Positions 13,852 through 20,126 of a stretch of 38,137 nt of DNA are shown here, piece after piece. Numbering within the stretch: the first letter of the stretch is position 1; each line of letters starts with the position of its first letter. The DNA is from Desulfoscipio geothermicus (GTDB taxonomy: Bacteria; Bacillota; Desulfotomaculia; Desulfotomaculales; Desulfallaceae), in contig JAENYF010000030.1 of the NCBI GenBank assembly GCA_016841905.1, positions 1-38,137 of the forward strand, read 5' to 3'. The notes under the pieces are model-generated. The model made no database searches. It had not been told where the DNA came from and saw only the letters and a program-made list of their open reading frames with translations. Made by a program: the position numbers and the translations under genes.

Positions 13852-13900
13852 CTGGAGGATGATTATCAGCGCAAAATGCATTAACCGTTCGTGATCGGCA
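13852..13900 (+). pseudogene. IS66 transposase remnant, left part
   Basis: The last 49 bases before the RIT element read LEDDYQRKMH-stop-PFVIG. The PFVIG piece is the stretch that in IS66 TnpC proteins directly precedes R-K-N-W-L-F, which is found at 17299 on the other side of the RIT. The part before PFVIG is decayed, with a stop codon. Upstream bases to about 13780 may belong to the same gene but are too degraded to align by eye. Confidence 0.65.
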
Positions 13901-13902
13901 GC

Positions 13903-13927
13903 AATTATGTGCTGACTTTGTTTATGT
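13903..13927 (+). repeat. RIT terminal inverted repeat, left
   Basis: These 25 bases are the exact reverse complement of 17249-17273. They include TTATGTGCT, a motif that recurs inside both ends and is a likely recombinase binding unit. Confidence 0.88.
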
Positions 13928-13979
13928 TCATACCCATTTCCACTGTGGGTAAAACCGCTTAGAATACTCATTTCAGAGC

Positions 13980-14009
13980 AATTATGTGCTTCTTTATAAG
14001 CACATAATT
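13980..14009. terminator. hairpin at the end of the recombinase operon
   Basis: AATTATGTGCTT (13980-13991) and AAGCACATAATT (13998-14009) are perfect 12-bp arms around six bases, overlapping the stop of the last recombinase. The arms repeat the sequence of the RIT ends, so the site may bind recombinase as well as, or instead of, ending transcription. GC content is low for a terminator and there is no strong T run. Confidence 0.5.
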
Positions 14010-15009
14010 ACAAAGATGCTAGGAATGACAGAATATCCTTAGATGGTTTATAACGGTATCTACTTACTGAGGGTTCAGCTATTTTCTCCAGTATTCTCTG
14101 CTTCATCTCAATGTCTGCTTCCATATATTTATGTGTTGTATTTATGCTCTCATGTCCAAGCCAAATAGCAATTGTTGAGATGTCGACTCCTGACTGCAGC
14201 AAATGAAGCGCGGTTGAATGTCGAAAAGTATGCGGGCTAATTTTTTTGCTTTCTAATCTTGGGATAATTTTCTGTGCTTTTTTCTTTAAACAATCAATAC
14301 GGTAACGGACACCTGATCGGGTGAGTTCATCGCCTGTATGATTTATAAACAATTTTTCATCTGGCTTTAGGCCATGCTCTTCAATATACTTTTTAATATA
14401 GGTTGCTGTTGTCTTCCAAAGAGGAATATTTCTTTCTTTTCGTCCTTTACCCATTACATTGATATAACCAGCCGTTCCCGAACCGTCAAATATAACATCT
14501 TTACATCTTAGGGAAATAAGCTCGGATACCCTTATACCTGTATTATAAAGAATCAATATCATCATCCTGTCGCGGCGGCCAAGAGCTTCTTTCATAGAAC
14601 AGGCACCCAGAAAAGCATCTATTTCTTCTTTTGTCAAGAAACCCAGTTGCCGTTTTTCTGCCTTCTGGAAGGGAATCATGAGGCTTCTTTGAATAGTAGC
14701 GCTGTATTCCGGTTTTTCAAAAGACATGAAATGAAGAAAGGCATGGATTGCGGCCAGGCGATTATTGATGGTTTTCGCTTGATTCCCTCTTTTTTGATTA
14801 AGATACTCTAGAAAACCAAGTATCCATTCTGCTTCCATGTGTTCCAAACCTATTTTGTGCGGTGGACATTTATGAACTGTATCTAAATACTCAATATAAA
14901 TTCGGAAAGTGTCCCGGTAGGATTTAATGGTTTCCGGGGAGGCCTGTTTTTGATTGAGCATCCTCTTAAGAAAGAACTTCTGGAGCAAATCTTGGAAAAG
15001 GTTATTCAT
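14008..15009 (-). CDS. tyrosine recombinase, third gene of RIT
   Basis: The 333-residue protein starts at ATG 15007-15009, preceded by AAGGAG, and overlaps the stop of the second recombinase by eight bases. The N-terminal half (about 1-105) is a SAM-like core-binding domain; the C-terminal half is catalytic. The residues are R in NTGIRVSELISL, K in GKGRKERNIPL, HxxR in SPHTFRHSTALHLL, then H in LGHESINTTHKY with the nucleophilic Tyr just after at HKYMEAD. It is therefore complete and probably active. In RIT elements the three recombinases are thought to act together, since they are always kept as a set; their individual roles are not established. Confidence 0.9.
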   Translation of the reverse strand: MNNLFQDLLQKFFLKRMLNQKQASPETIKSYRDTFRIYIEYLDTVHKCPPHKIGLEHMEAEWILGFLEYLNQKRGNQAKTINNRLAAIHAFLHFMSFEKPEYSATIQRSLMIPFQKAEKRQLGFLTKEEIDAFLGACSMKEALGRRDRMMILILYNTGIRVSELISLRCKDVIFDGSGTAGYINVMGKGRKERNIPLWKTTATYIKKYIEEHGLKPDEKLFINHTGDELTRSGVRYRIDCLKKKAQKIIPRLESKKISPHTFRHSTALHLLQSGVDISTIAIWLGHESINTTHKYMEADIEMKQRILEKIAEPSVSRYRYKPSKDILSFLASL

Positions 15010-15967
15010 CTGGTTGCAACTCCTTTCCGTAACGGATCTCAAACTTTCCGCTAGCGAGGGAAAGAAGTTCTGGAGTGGATGTTAGATACCAATAGGTATC
15101 AGCTGGTTTCACGTGCCCCATATAAACCGAAAGCAAATAAATCTTTTGGTTGACATCTTCTCCGCTTTCTAGCCATTTAAGAATAGTACGGCAGGCAAAA
15201 CTGTGCCGAACATCATATAAACGTGGTGGTCTCCTATACCAATTGCTTTCACCAACCGGCATCAAACAGGGGCGCAGTTGCTGGAATGCATATTCAAAAG
15301 CTCTCAAATTAAATTGCCTTCCGTATGACGTTACAAAGAAGAAATGATCTTCTGATCGACCGGGAAGTTTATCTTTTAGTTTCAGGTTATAGTTTTTAAG
15401 CTGTTCCAAGACGGTTTGATGCATAGGGACCAGCCTGTCCTTATGAAATTTTGTATTTTTGATATAAAGATGTCTTTCCCTAAAATTGACATCTTTAACT
15501 TTAAGATTTACCAGCTCGGAAACACGAATCCCTGTTGACCACAACAAACCTAGCGCAATAGACACTGTCAGGCACCTGATGCCATCCGGGGAAAATAAAT
15601 TAGCGGATTCTTTCATCAGCCTAAGGATTTCTTCTTCTGTGTAAATATAAGGTGTCACACGTCCATGACATTTCCCAAAGACTCCTGTTTGGGGAACTTG
15701 GGCCTGAGGATCGATAGAGGCGGCATATTTTGCAAATGTATGTAATGTTTCCAGCCTTCTAGCCATATACCACCTGCTGAGGCTGCCATCGAGAGAAGCC
15801 CATTGCATGGCCAGATCAACAGTGATGGAGCCGCTATGTTCAATTTCGCGTGTATATTTGGTAAAACGTCGTAATTCCTGTGACTCAATTTTTAATTTAT
15901 AGCCCAGGCTTTGCTTGTATTCAATATATGCTTCTATTTGTTTGGTTATTTTATTATCTGCTAACAT
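15002..15967 (-). CDS. tyrosine recombinase, second gene of RIT
   Basis: The 321-residue protein is taken from ATG 15965-15967, with GGAGGTG seven bases upstream, inside the end of the preceding gene (a longer frame begins at 15988). The catalytic Arg is in WSTGIRVSELVNL, Lys in NTKFHKDRLVPM, the second Arg in LYDVRHSFACRT, followed by MGHVKPADTYWYL with His and the Tyr nucleophile. The first His of the HxxR box is replaced by Tyr (YDVR), a substitution that is tolerated in this superfamily. It is the shortest of the three, as usual for the middle RIT protein. It overlaps both neighbours, indicating one transcript with coupled translation. Confidence 0.9.
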   Translation of the reverse strand: MLADNKITKQIEAYIEYKQSLGYKLKIESQELRRFTKYTREIEHSGSITVDLAMQWASLDGSLSRWYMARRLETLHTFAKYAASIDPQAQVPQTGVFGKCHGRVTPYIYTEEEILRLMKESANLFSPDGIRCLTVSIALGLLWSTGIRVSELVNLKVKDVNFRERHLYIKNTKFHKDRLVPMHQTVLEQLKNYNLKLKDKLPGRSEDHFFFVTSYGRQFNLRAFEYAFQQLRPCLMPVGESNWYRRPPRLYDVRHSFACRTILKWLESGEDVNQKIYLLSVYMGHVKPADTYWYLTSTPELLSLASGKFEIRYGKELQPDE

Positions 15968-17181
15968 AAGCTGCCACCTCCGGGCCATATACCGGCAGCT
16001 TGTTGCAACAGCGTTTCAGTATCTATTTTTGTATAAATTGCAGTGCTATCCAGAGATTCATGGCCAAGGATATCTGCCACCATTTTAAGTGTGCAGCCTT
16101 TTTTATATATTTTACTGGCTACTGTCCTACGTAATATATGAGTACCGGTAATGGATTCACTAATACCAGATCTTTTGTATGCACGGCGCATAACACCCCT
16201 TATCTGTTCTCTACCCATAGGTTCACCCTGAGTATGGGAAAAACGGATAAAAAGGACCCGGCTTTTCGATGCAGGCCGAGAATTTTTAAGATAATCAACA
16301 ATGGCTTTTCCAAACGTGGAGGATATAGGTAGGGACCTATCAGCATGGGTTTTGGTGTTTTTAATGTTAATAATGCTATTTTTCCAGTCAAAATCATCCA
16401 AAGTTAGGCTGGCAACTTCTGTGCATCTAAGGCCCAGTTCTATGAAAGATAAGGTAATTGCATAATCCCGTATTCCTACAGGTCTGCTTTTATCAAAACA
16501 ATTCGGCAATGATTCGAATTCTTCGTCGGTTAGCACAGTCGGAATAGAATTTAATTTCCATACCGCCGGTGAAAGTGGGATCTTAAAGATAGACTCATCA
16601 ACATTTACACAGGAAAATTTGAGGTAAAGGAAAAAGTTACGTATTGCTGTTGCTATCCTTCCTTTTGTACTTGGTTTTAAATGGGCCACTTCATCGGTAA
16701 AATAATTCCGGATGTCCAGAGCGTAAATTTTAGACACATTAAAATTTACGGGTGACTGTTGATAGATAAAATTAAGGAACTTCTTTACCCAGCTAACTTC
16801 AGAAATGACACTTGTTTCCGTTAGATGTTTAACGTTTTCTTGGTATTGTTGGAAACCATCCAATAGTTCTTTGATTGTATTAATACTATTTTCTTTTTCT
16901 TTCTTAGAATAGGGTGAACCTATTAAAGATTTAAAATAAGCGTATAATGCGGCCCGGCAATCTTTAAATGTTTGTGGAGCTTTTAAGGCTTCATTTTGAA
17001 GAAATATATTTATTTGGTCTCTTAAGTCGAAATTCTCATCATAGTAATTTGATCGCAAAAATCTAGAAACATAGGTGTGATATCCAATAATTGTACTCTC
17101 GCGATATTCATGTTCAGCTAAAAATATCCTAAACTGATTCAATTTCTGTCTGATTGGTGATGTTAAAAAAACGTACGGCAA
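15961..17181 (-). CDS. tyrosine recombinase, first gene of RIT
   Basis: The 406-residue protein starts with TTG at 17179-17181 (GAGGTG eight bases before); no in-frame ATG lies near a ribosome site. The extended N-terminal part (about 1-215) holds core-binding helices, and the C-terminal catalytic domain has R in GLRCTEVASLTL, K in NTKTHADRSLPI, THILRR for the HxxR box, and LGHESLDSTAIYTKID with His and Tyr. All five catalytic positions are present. The promoter should lie between the right inverted repeat (17249) and the start, within 70 bases, so recombinase binding to its own end could control expression. Confidence 0.9.
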   Translation of the reverse strand: MPYVFLTSPIRQKLNQFRIFLAEHEYRESTIIGYHTYVSRFLRSNYYDENFDLRDQINIFLQNEALKAPQTFKDCRAALYAYFKSLIGSPYSKKEKENSINTIKELLDGFQQYQENVKHLTETSVISEVSWVKKFLNFIYQQSPVNFNVSKIYALDIRNYFTDEVAHLKPSTKGRIATAIRNFFLYLKFSCVNVDESIFKIPLSPAVWKLNSIPTVLTDEEFESLPNCFDKSRPVGIRDYAITLSFIELGLRCTEVASLTLDDFDWKNSIINIKNTKTHADRSLPISSTFGKAIVDYLKNSRPASKSRVLFIRFSHTQGEPMGREQIRGVMRRAYKRSGISESITGTHILRRTVASKIYKKGCTLKMVADILGHESLDSTAIYTKIDTETLLQQAAGIWPGGGSLC

Positions 17182-17248
17182 AGTAGCAACACCTCTTTAT
17201 TTGAAGTATAAATTGCTGCTACTTATCCTTACAATTAGTTTAATGAGC

Positions 17249-17273
17249 ACATAAACAAAGTCAGCACATAATT
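17249..17273 (-). repeat. RIT terminal inverted repeat, right
   Basis: Exact reverse complement of the left repeat over 25 bases. Read inward, TTATGTGCT occurs twice here, the second time just past the repeat, and a third degenerate copy (ATTATGTTCT) is found outside at 17289-17298. Confidence 0.88.
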
Positions 17274-17298
17274 TCTTTTATGTGCGCAAGAACATAAT

Positions 17299-17523
17299 CG
17301 CAAGAATTGGTTATTTGCCAATACCCCGCGTGGCGCCAATGCCAGTGCAACGATTTACAGCATTGTTGAAACAGCTAAGGAAAATGGCCTAAATCCATTT
17401 AGCTACCTTCAGTATCTTTTTGAAAGGCTTCCCAACCTAGATATCCAAGACCAAAACGCATTAGATGAGCTACTTCCCTGGTCGGATTCTTTGCCTCTGA
17501 CTTGTCGGGTGAATAAAAAGTAG
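17299..17523 (+). pseudogene. IS66 transposase remnant, right part (C-terminus)
   Basis: Seventy-four codons run without interruption from RKNWLFANTPRGANASATIY through SIVETAKENGLNPFSYLQYL to a TAG stop. This is the conserved C-terminal end of IS66-family TnpC DDE transposases. It continues the PFVIG at 13886-13900 exactly where the family sequence predicts, showing that the RIT element split the gene. There is no start or DDE triad here, so it is inactive. No IS66 helper genes (tnpA/tnpB) or terminal repeats were recognised. Confidence 0.82.
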
Positions 17524-18555: not shown

Positions 18556-19452
18556 TTAAACATATCTTCTTTCCCCATGGTTCCAATTTTTAAATAGTTC
18601 ATCCTCCTGAATCAGTGCTTCATATGGTGGCTTAAGAAAATCAATTATTACTTTGACAACGTTGTTAAAGTCAAGTTTGTATTGCAATATTTTTTTACAA
18701 AAATTATCCCATCGCTCTAAGATATTAGAGTCATTCGCCAACCTTGAAATTATGATAACAGAGTCCTTTTCATAGGGTGTGCCCCGATTAGTAAGGGTTT
18801 CAAAAATTGCTTCCTGTAGCTTCCTTCCATCAAAATCAAATGTTGTTGCCAAATAATATATATCAAAAAAATCCTTCATCCTACTTGTAGCTTCCATTAG
18901 CGATATGATAGCATCTAGTTTTTCTGCCACAGTAGACTCTAAAGAATAAGTTAATATTTTAGGTTCTTCAAATCCTGGAAGTAATACCGGCAAAGTTCTT
19001 TCAACTGGTGAAGGTATTATAACATCACCAACTCCAAAATCTATACTAAAAGGGGTCTTTGTCTTTCCAATAAACCCAATAAGATTAACTCTAATACCAT
19101 GATACTCCTTATTCTCACTGATAGTTTCTAACCTTCTAACCTCAAATTGTATAAAATCGTTTTTGCTAGGCGAGGAAATAACTTCCTTAACAAGTTTTCC
19201 CACTGCATTCAAGTTGCTAGGATAATTTTTTAATAGGTAATCTGCATCGACTGTTGGTCTTGCGGTAAATCCACTAATTGAATATAATAAAAGACCGCCT
19301 TTAAGAATGAGTTTTTCTTTGTAGTTACTTATGGAAAGCCTTCGTATAAATTCCTCTTGGCAAAATAAATTTAAGAGTTGCTGTAATGGGATACCTTGTT
19401 CTTTTGATTTGTTTTTTAGTCTCGCTAAGACTGAAGCTTCAATATTTTCCAT
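18556..19452 (-). CDS. AbiEii-type nucleotidyltransferase toxin
   Basis: The 298-residue protein belongs to the AbiEii/AbiGii nucleotidyltransferase group. The core signature is seen as LKGGLLLYSISGFTARPTVD followed by ADYL, with the acidic pair of the nucleotidyltransferase fold, then SIDFGVGD, and the late motif AEKLDAIISL with RMKDFFDIYYLA. Relatives act as type IV or MenT-like toxins that modify tRNA ends or otherwise block growth. The start is ATG 19450-19452, overlapping the antitoxin stop as TAATG, with AGGAGTG eight bases upstream; an in-frame GTG at 19461 lacks such a site. It sits at the edge of the mobile island, the usual place for abortive-infection cargo. Confidence 0.85.
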   Translation of the reverse strand: MENIEASVLARLKNKSKEQGIPLQQLLNLFCQEEFIRRLSISNYKEKLILKGGLLLYSISGFTARPTVDADYLLKNYPSNLNAVGKLVKEVISSPSKNDFIQFEVRRLETISENKEYHGIRVNLIGFIGKTKTPFSIDFGVGDVIIPSPVERTLPVLLPGFEEPKILTYSLESTVAEKLDAIISLMEATSRMKDFFDIYYLATTFDFDGRKLQEAIFETLTNRGTPYEKDSVIIISRLANDSNILERWDNFCKKILQYKLDFNNVVKVIIDFLKPPYEALIQEDELFKNWNHGERRYV

Positions 19453-20048
19453 TACAACCACACTCCTACATATGTCTGCACCTTATTCTTTATATTAAAT
19501 ATTTCTGCATACTCAAACAGCTTTCTTATATTTTTTTTTGGGTCCTTTACATAACGCCCAATTGCATTATTAAATACTTCTTTCTCTAGCTTTTTCTCAT
19601 AACGAAGGACATCACAAATTGTGCGGTCTCTGTCATATATTCTAATTTTTACACCATCTACCTGTATTATATCTACACCAATATCTATAAACTTTGGTTC
19701 AAGATAGTAAGGTTCTATTAAAGGATAATCTATATTATATTGGGTTGTTTTACTATATCTGTCCACAGCTATTTGCCATGCTAACGGTATGCGATCTGTA
19801 TAACTATAGTGCAACAGAGCACTTTCAAGAAATATAACCGCTTGTGGGAATAGTCGTGCTATAATCACCTCTTCCCGACTAACATAATCCGTCAGCTCGT
19901 AAAAACCACGTTTAATCCTTGTAATAACTCCATCATCCAAAAGCCTTTTTATCTGGCGGCTTGAAAGCCCTAGTTCATTAAGCTCCGTAGTTTTTAGGAT
20001 TCCTCCTCGTCTTTGAAACTCCTTTCTCAATATGTGAATTGCTACCAT
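19452..20048 (-). CDS. AbiEi-type antitoxin and transcriptional regulator
   Basis: The 198-residue protein has an N-terminal winged helix (GGILKTTELNELGLSSRQIK, then RLLDDGVITRIKRGFYEL, about 14-55) and a C-terminal AbiEi domain with CDVLRYEKKLEKEVFNNAIG. Such proteins neutralise AbiEii toxins and repress their own promoter through the winged helix. The start is ATG 20046-20048, with GGGAGGTG six bases before; the longer frame to 20099 has no ribosome site. The gene is translationally coupled to the toxin gene by a TAATG junction. A sigma-A promoter is found at 20098-20126. Confidence 0.85.
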   Translation of the reverse strand: MVAIHILRKEFQRRGGILKTTELNELGLSSRQIKRLLDDGVITRIKRGFYELTDYVSREEVIIARLFPQAVIFLESALLHYSYTDRIPLAWQIAVDRYSKTTQYNIDYPLIEPYYLEPKFIDIGVDIIQVDGVKIRIYDRDRTICDVLRYEKKLEKEVFNNAIGRYVKDPKKNIRKLFEYAEIFNIKNKVQTYVGVWL

Positions 20049-20097
20049 TCTGCACCTCCCGGCCTGCATTCGTTTTGCAGCGCAGTCTTTTAAGTGC

Positions 20098-20126
20098 ATT
20101 TAACCATATTTTTACTTATTGTTCAA
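20098..20126 (-). promoter_or_regulatory. promoter of abiE operon
   Basis: On the minus strand TTGAAC (20121-20126) and TTAAAT (20098-20103) are 17 bases apart, about 50 bases before the antitoxin start. AT-rich surroundings fit an autoregulated toxin-antitoxin promoter. Confidence 0.55.

Follow-up and report, generated by a model that had tools for sequence, protein, structure and literature searches.

Probable codon-specific integration of a recombinase-in-trio element into an IS66 transposase gene of Desulfoscipio geothermicus

Recombinase-in-trio (RIT) elements are composed of three overlapping tyrosine recombinase genes on ca. 3.5 kb of DNA with a 28-29 bp inverted repeat and an overlapping terminal palindrome (PMC3414803). 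RitA has two core-binding domains and RitC an extra C-terminal helix (PMC8138268). These elements are widespread, and the open literature consulted here calls their target specificity and movement untested, including an entry to this effect on target specificity in Table 1 of PMC10214605. One of them, ritA1B1C1 of Cupriavidus metallidurans CH34, inactivates an IS66 tnpA gene (PMC2864759). Here we describe a RIT element at positions 13899-17303 of a 38,137-nucleotide stretch of Desulfoscipio geothermicus DNA (contig JAENYF010000030.1, from its first position; hereafter "the window") that likewise interrupts an IS66 transposase gene, tnpC. Related loci are labeled with L-numbers such as L011 or L013, and the element of the window is labeled W.

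The CH34 element is the closest described case and resembles W in its trio of genes, its size of ca. 3.5 kb, its inverted repeat with palindrome, and its IS66 host gene (PMC3414803, PMC2864759). We compared this copy by description only, and the sections of its accounts consulted here, unlike the present analysis, give no codon, empty site, target rule, or role for the palindrome. Strand-biased circularizing integrative elements (SEs) share a 6-bp spacer between terminal motifs, and a footprint at each new site preserves the spacer of the site they left (PMC10214605). However, they encode IntA, Tfp, IntB, and Srap, whereas W has three recombinases only, along with a palindromic stem and, at one of its ends, a second full site. 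The three open reading frames of at least 80 amino acids between its ends are all tyrosine recombinases, as judged without a search using Tfp or Srap models. GInt islands likewise use several integrases, and their 6-nt staggered cuts and heteroduplex repair alter the att sequence (PMC5385486). They differ in having ginABCD with cargo and direct repeats of 10-17 nt, the string "palindrom" does not occur in PMC5385486, and W has three genes and no cargo between its ends. Tn554 resembles W in its tyrosine recombinases, target specificity, and 6-bp footprint (cited in PMC10214605), but by description it is set apart by TnpA, TnpB, and TnpC, which are not a trio of the RitA/RitB/RitC type.

Our comparisons suggest that this RIT probably reached its position by site-specific integration at codons G|RK of IS66 (the vertical bar marking the insertion point) and moves via a circle with a palindromic junction that offers two crossover sites. 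RIT anatomy with inverted repeat and palindrome and the presence of one RIT in an IS66 gene were already known (PMC3414803, PMC2864759). As far as could be checked, three aspects are new: the codon shared by related elements, the palindromic stem that stays on one side of the target with either orientation of the element, and a memory of earlier target codons inside the element. Neither a codon-level target rule nor a two-site junction for RITs is evident in the titles or abstract openings of the literature found. Together, shared codon, stem side, and codon memory make the RIT mechanism testable.

In gene content, W is an ordinary RIT. It is intact, ca. 3.4 kb long, and carries three open, adjacent, and overlapping minus-strand genes in the order ritA-ritB-ritC, all of which match Phage_integrase and align with annotated trios. 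Its inverted repeat I1 spans both arms with 28 nt, and a stem at 17278-17297 accounts for the overlapping palindrome. The left end reads IS66, spacer So, arm, and the right end reads arm, internal spacer S', stem, junction spacer S, IS66. The features, with an uninterrupted IS66 gene of the same genus (L034) as reference, are as follows:

13880..13899, plus strand: 5' remnant of IS66 tnpC (codons ...PFVIG), aligned to L034 with one mismatch and one gap; its last base doubles as the first base of the left spacer
13899..13904, plus strand: left junction spacer So, CAGCAA, the 6 bp separating the IS66 half from the arm, compared with relatives
13905..13927, plus strand: ritC-end arm (inverted repeat), part of repeat I1
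13980..14009, strand not applicable: perfect 12-bp hairpin 3' of ritC
14008..15042, minus strand: ritC, tyrosine recombinase, 344 amino acids (Phage_integrase)
15002..15988, minus strand: ritB, tyrosine recombinase, 328 amino acids (Phage_integrase)
15961..17181, minus strand: ritA, tyrosine recombinase, 406 amino acids (Phage_integrase)
17249..17271, plus strand: ritA-end arm (inverted repeat), part of repeat I1
17272..17277, plus strand: internal spacer S', TTTCTT; on the opposite strand AAGAAA, which would encode G-R-K with AGA for Arg
17278..17297, plus strand: 20-bp palindromic stem TTATGTGCGCAAGAACATAA with 7/10 pairs, containing an "extra" CGCAAGAA (see below)
17298..17303, plus strand: right junction spacer S, TCGCAA, compared with relatives and L034
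17304..17523, plus strand: 3' part of IS66 tnpC, beginning at the third position of the RKNW Lys codon and ending with the stop codon, recognized by profile matches and the alignment to L034

An earlier sequence-only reading of this DNA had proposed that a complete RIT lies in an IS66 gene and that both of its junctions can be read, and this is what we find: three recombinase genes, their arms, and IS66 codons on each side. PFVIG is present on the left, one base away from where that reading had placed it (13885-13899 rather than 13886-13900). RKNWLFAN begins at 17299 as proposed and belongs to the IS66 C-terminus (PF13817, E-value 1.4e-17; positions 344-387 of NF033517). The suggestion that PFVIG and RKNW are consecutive in IS66, to be checked against an uninterrupted gene from a related genome, was borne out by L034, which has three equal-scoring places in its genome and reads ...ATTAAACCGTTTGTGATCGG-ACGCAA-AAATTGG...: the joined flanks of the window align to it straight across the junction and define the empty site. 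The left IS66 remnant extends over only ca. 20 bp and departs from L034 by one mismatch and a gap of one base, and no IS66 similarity was found leftward of it. Other copies of the RIT in the same genome had also been suggested for comparison, but the source genome holds a single copy (and no IS66_C match besides the one in the window), so that ends were compared among relatives instead.

The right end required more revision. The element does not stop at the inverted repeat but at 17297 plus a 6-bp spacer, beyond the 20-bp palindrome. The extra copy of CGCAAGAA noticed there is real (17285-17292 versus 17299-17306), but it does not lie outside the element, since the first copy sits within the stem. 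Its interpretation as a target-site duplication is ruled out by the stems of L064, where the identical TTATGTGCGCAAGAACATAA stands beside a junction GAGAAAAAATTGG lacking CGCAAGAA, and of L013, where the stem TTATGTGCTTAAGAACATAA stands beside the junction CCGCAAAAACTGG. The alternative idea of a crossover came nearer, though the likely crossover spacer is TCGCAA (17298-17303), the 6 bp directly outside the stem.

The element had also been described as merely caught in its IS66 gene, but relatives occupy the identical codon. RITs are found at G|RK (positions 464-466 of the IS66 hidden Markov model; "site I") in W, L011, L013, L014, L015, L016, L064, L082, L086, L087, L088, and L090, i.e., in Bacillota and Proteobacteria, in different IS66 genes, and in both orientations. 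Besides elements of Desulforamulus putei (L003/L013; Bacillota) and Ca. Syntrophopropionicum (L004/L014) and the 39% relative L011, these include plasmid elements of Thiodictyon, Marinobacter, Skermanella, Croceicoccus, Sphingobium, Rhodovastum, and Roseibium (L015, L016, L082, L086, L087, L088, and L090). The junction on the RKNW side is the only legible one in L014, L016, L064, and L090.

Across the compared loci, RIT ends come in two types, arm-S'(6 bp)-stem-S(6 bp)-target and arm-spacer-target. The stem is a widespread feature: a palindrome with at least 7/10 pairs adjoins an arm in 31/40 elements with arm repeats at both ends compared to 38/240 control windows further out; these elements had been found without requiring a stem, so that this count measures stem frequency. 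Two scripts that presuppose a stem cannot do so: one that required it matched 44/94 RitB rows, some of them implausible and set aside by eye, and a looser one returned 72 rows, 46 of them with a score of at least 28 and at least 7 stem pairs; a few of these, L024, L025, L089, and L094 among them, were not trusted.

At the G|RK codon, the stem lies on the RKNW side in all five copies with both ends legible, even though it marks the ritA end in W, L013, and L086 and the ritC end in L015 and L087. Four further copies with only the RKNW-side end legible carry it there as well (L016 at the ritA end; L014, L090, and L064 at the ritC end). This count excludes L082 (stem illegible), L011 and L088 (stems at both ends), and L062 (other IS66 codon). 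Two other targets show the same pattern of one stem side with either orientation, i.e., the LRH box of tyrosine recombinases (L023 and L026, ritA end; L127, ritC end) and a motif of group II reverse transcriptases (L022 and L110, ritA end; L115, ritC end, with only the stem end legible and both target and side read by eye from script output).

We propose a circular form of the element to explain why the stem keeps one side despite either orientation: the junction of this circle would be a palindrome offering two equivalent crossover sites. The three recombinases would excise or copy the element as a circle whose junction, arm-S'-stem-S-arm, presents these sites in opposite orientation. Either could recombine with the target site (attB), 6-bp spacer against 6-bp spacer, joining the stem half to the RKNW half and the arm half to the PFVIG half; the element could then insert in either orientation, and its stem would always adjoin RKNW. 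The site left unused would remain within the element as S' and keep the spacer of an earlier target; in the window, S' (AAGAAA) would hold Arg as AGA where the present IS66 has CGC. The end anatomy supplies exact att sites, exact empty sites, a predicted circle junction, and a reason for both orientations. Rearranged forms that two active sites could produce are also seen, i.e., tail-stem-tail without an element (L067), heads at both ends without stems (L089), tails at both ends without stems (L062), and stems plus tails at both ends (L088 and L011). Contigs of 3.2-3.7 kb were considered as candidates for assembled circles and rejected, as none of the 11 tested had a direct terminal overlap.

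The internal spacer now lies outside coding sequence, yet in the frame of the target it often retains the residues of that target. In L104, S' reads GACGAG and the junctions GATGAG and GACGAA, all encoding Asp-Glu; in L105, CTTGCG and TTGGCC both encode Leu-Ala; and the Arg codons of S' and junction are CGG and AGG in L088 and AGA and AGG in L090. Among 33 spacer rows (L011 counted twice and the fragments L064, L068, and L072 included), S' matches a junction spacer exactly, in inverted orientation, in 18 and differs from the legible junction spacers in 15. Where S' differs from both junctions, the difference is synonymous in 8/14 trios compared to 1.70 expected if changes of equal size were random (P about 2e-6), and in 3/8 compared to 0.20 expected (P = 1e-4) for differences of at least two bases. 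This test left out the left end of L011 (the second end of one element) and the fragment L068; adding L068 gives 9/15, and so does a version with L068 and the left end of L011 but without L090. The most economical explanation has S' copied from a homologous target used earlier, of which it looks like a record; if this is true, genomes keep a short record of past jumps. As a separate observation on spacers, the related RITs L096 and L097 on viral contigs have similar flanks (CAGC.TCCG.GGCTTCAT), yet three different spacers are present in L097.

A different route with the same outcome for the stem side is possible, though we consider it rather unlikely: one strand might fold at the palindromic junction into a hairpin, arm with arm and S with S', and be exchanged into one strand of the target. 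In integron cassettes, a folded single-strand site is exchanged with the target in this way. The hairpin pairing would favor the exact inverted copies of junction spacers, and a single-stranded circle was once a hypothesis for SEs (PMC10214605). However, later SE data favor double-stranded, mostly nicked circles (same source), and the 15/33 rows with a differing S' indicate that pairing between S and S' is not required.

Several observations weigh against site-specific integration through a two-site circle and the codon memory that goes with it. The circle and transposition are deduced from sequences, and repeated RIT insertion is suggested by relatives only. Stems were not seen at the arm end of 9/40 elements (L017, L018, L027, L062, L082, L085, L102, L138, and L140), and L030 and L085, near IS66 site II, have the stem opposite to L069, L070, and L105 and their spacers at other codons. 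The site-I clade of the RIT tree described below also contains elements at other targets (L020, L085, and L089) and unresolved ones, and the right end of L011 and L135, which lie at contig ends, may be assembly products. Regarding codon memory, 6/14 differing S' are not synonymous; three of these match residues at that place in other IS66 genes examined (L070, RS; L031, TA; L131-, HTD), but those of L028, L129, and L030 are unexplained. The synonym test also counts related elements as independent trials, and part of the site-I rows had flanking bases typed from the site consensus. The window has three different spacers (CAGCAA, AAGAAA, and TCGCAA), the left of which would encode Ser rather than Arg; this requires that mutation or repair be assumed. 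Finally, the junction holding the spacer that departs from S' varies (L087 and L092 versus L013 and L026); a strict SE-like rule on which junction holds the new spacer is unsupported by the spacer comparison.

The shared codon might also reflect a single old insertion if an IS66 already bearing a RIT had moved as a unit, as the presence of closely related RITs at one site could suggest. This is very improbable in light of how the two partners compare. W is 83% identical to L013 and 81% to L014 (74-88% for its three genes), but the IS66 tails are only 71% and 63% identical, and the tail in the window is closer to that of uninterrupted L034 (88%) than to these RIT-bearing ones. Since the elements are more alike than their host tails, the RITs of the window, L013, and L014 look like separate insertions, and by these alignments RIT and IS66 histories differ. 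Moreover, near relatives are oppositely oriented (W and L013 versus L014), and Arg codons differ among junctions. In a midpoint-rooted tree of 83 RitB+RitC sequences, shown without support values, all site-I elements fall into one clade.

Site-specific integration at conserved codons would extend beyond site I. Joining the flanks rebuilt 36 empty sites. In 23 of these, the reading frame stays open through the junction and belongs to a gene for a transposase, recombinase, reverse transcriptase, or ATPase, interrupted at a conserved motif. In IS66, the motifs hit are HA[DE]T, GYL[QT]DGY, GC[WA]H, NN[LA]ER, IE[TC]K, PIDN[NW], and G[RK]; elsewhere, they are PQ[GG]PLSPLL of group II reverse transcriptases, the LRH box, IS21 transposase near QVD and PKDK, the Walker A motif of IstB, and, in rve transposases, Y.DNG and a place near the catalytic E; an AAA ATPase is hit as well. 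Several of the interrupted motifs are catalytic. Of the 23 target peptides, 18 were run against Pfam and all matched; those of L013, L015, L086, and L087 were assigned with our own IS66 model and that of L110 by its motif. For L120, which is not among the 23, the only Pfam match was a helix-turn-helix, and L023a was the one of 20 target peptides without a Pfam match. The target of L021 belongs to AAA_22, a family not confined to transposons, and L127 interrupts a tyrosine recombinase that is not necessarily mobile.

Insertion anywhere, seen in IS66 only since IS66 is common, would fit the 10/36 rebuilt sites without a recognizable gene, the three more that the script did not settle (W, L023a, and L120), and the 13/24 plasmid loci not interrupting IS66 described below, but it deserves almost no credence and is already contradicted by the shared codons, given that RIT-carrying IS66 breaks concentrate at few codons (chiefly 464-466 and 452-456) and that several RIT clades each keep one target (group II reverse transcriptase, IS66 site II, rve DNG). 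Should the target rule hold, RITs would inactivate other mobile elements at conserved codons, similar to the choice of conserved sites by homing elements elsewhere.

A broader proposal, which could equally well prove right or wrong, is that RITs as a group would be parasites of other mobile elements, each subfamily homing to a single conserved motif, often a catalytic one, in a transposase, recombinase, or group II reverse transcriptase, a place from which the target can hardly mutate away. The circle palindrome would carry two crossover sites, each with a 6-bp key copied from a past target, which would leave the integrated element with a readable record of a former host gene and a spare key for a different allele. 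The three recombinases would serve different half-sites (arm, stem, and two target halves).

Regarding sampling, RitB-like matches occur in 32/113 searched genomes of the window's class at 57 places, and the regions examined cover 50 of these. Eleven places are in IS66 (W, L011, L013, L014, L062, L069, L070, L104, L105, and two in L131) and eight in other identified genes (L110, L112, L115, L123, L124, L127, L129, and L130); the remaining ones have short flanks, ends that were not found, or unclear targets. Of 24 plasmid loci chosen from match lists for diversity, seven are at G|RK, four at other IS66 places (L030, L031, L085, and L089), and 13 do not interrupt IS66 by our own model. Another 20 regions were chosen by eye for broken IS66 pieces and yield no rate. 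Viral contigs searched with the window's RitA alone gave no relative; with alignment A1, they gave nine loci, and the DNA examined showed no IS66 match at any of them.

Some further observations concern IS66 and RIT structures outside this argument. IS66 tails without a stem begin at positions 460-469 in L063, L065, L066, and L075 and at 454 in L073. In L062 (5574-8294), a 2.7-kb insert without a RIT match, whose two long frames have no Pfam match, breaks an IS66 at this very G|RK codon, and a copy of ATTGGAAGG stands on each side of it. The site-II elements L069 (3336-5261) and L070 (3485-5503) have ritA frames of 641 and 672 amino acids instead of the usual ca. 400, with the integrase domain only at the end. 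In L138 and L140, a RIT trio lies beside a ritB match ending near position 258 of the RitB model, as if nested in the ritB of another trio. In the window, AGCAATTATGTGCT of the left junction recurs 77 bp further in (13977-13990), there within the 12-bp hairpin after ritC (13977-14009). Ca. 1 kb past the IS66 tail, the minus strand encodes an AbiEii nucleotidyl transferase and an AbiEi-type regulator (18556-20099; Pfam), a pair of the type IV toxin-antitoxin or abortive infection type.

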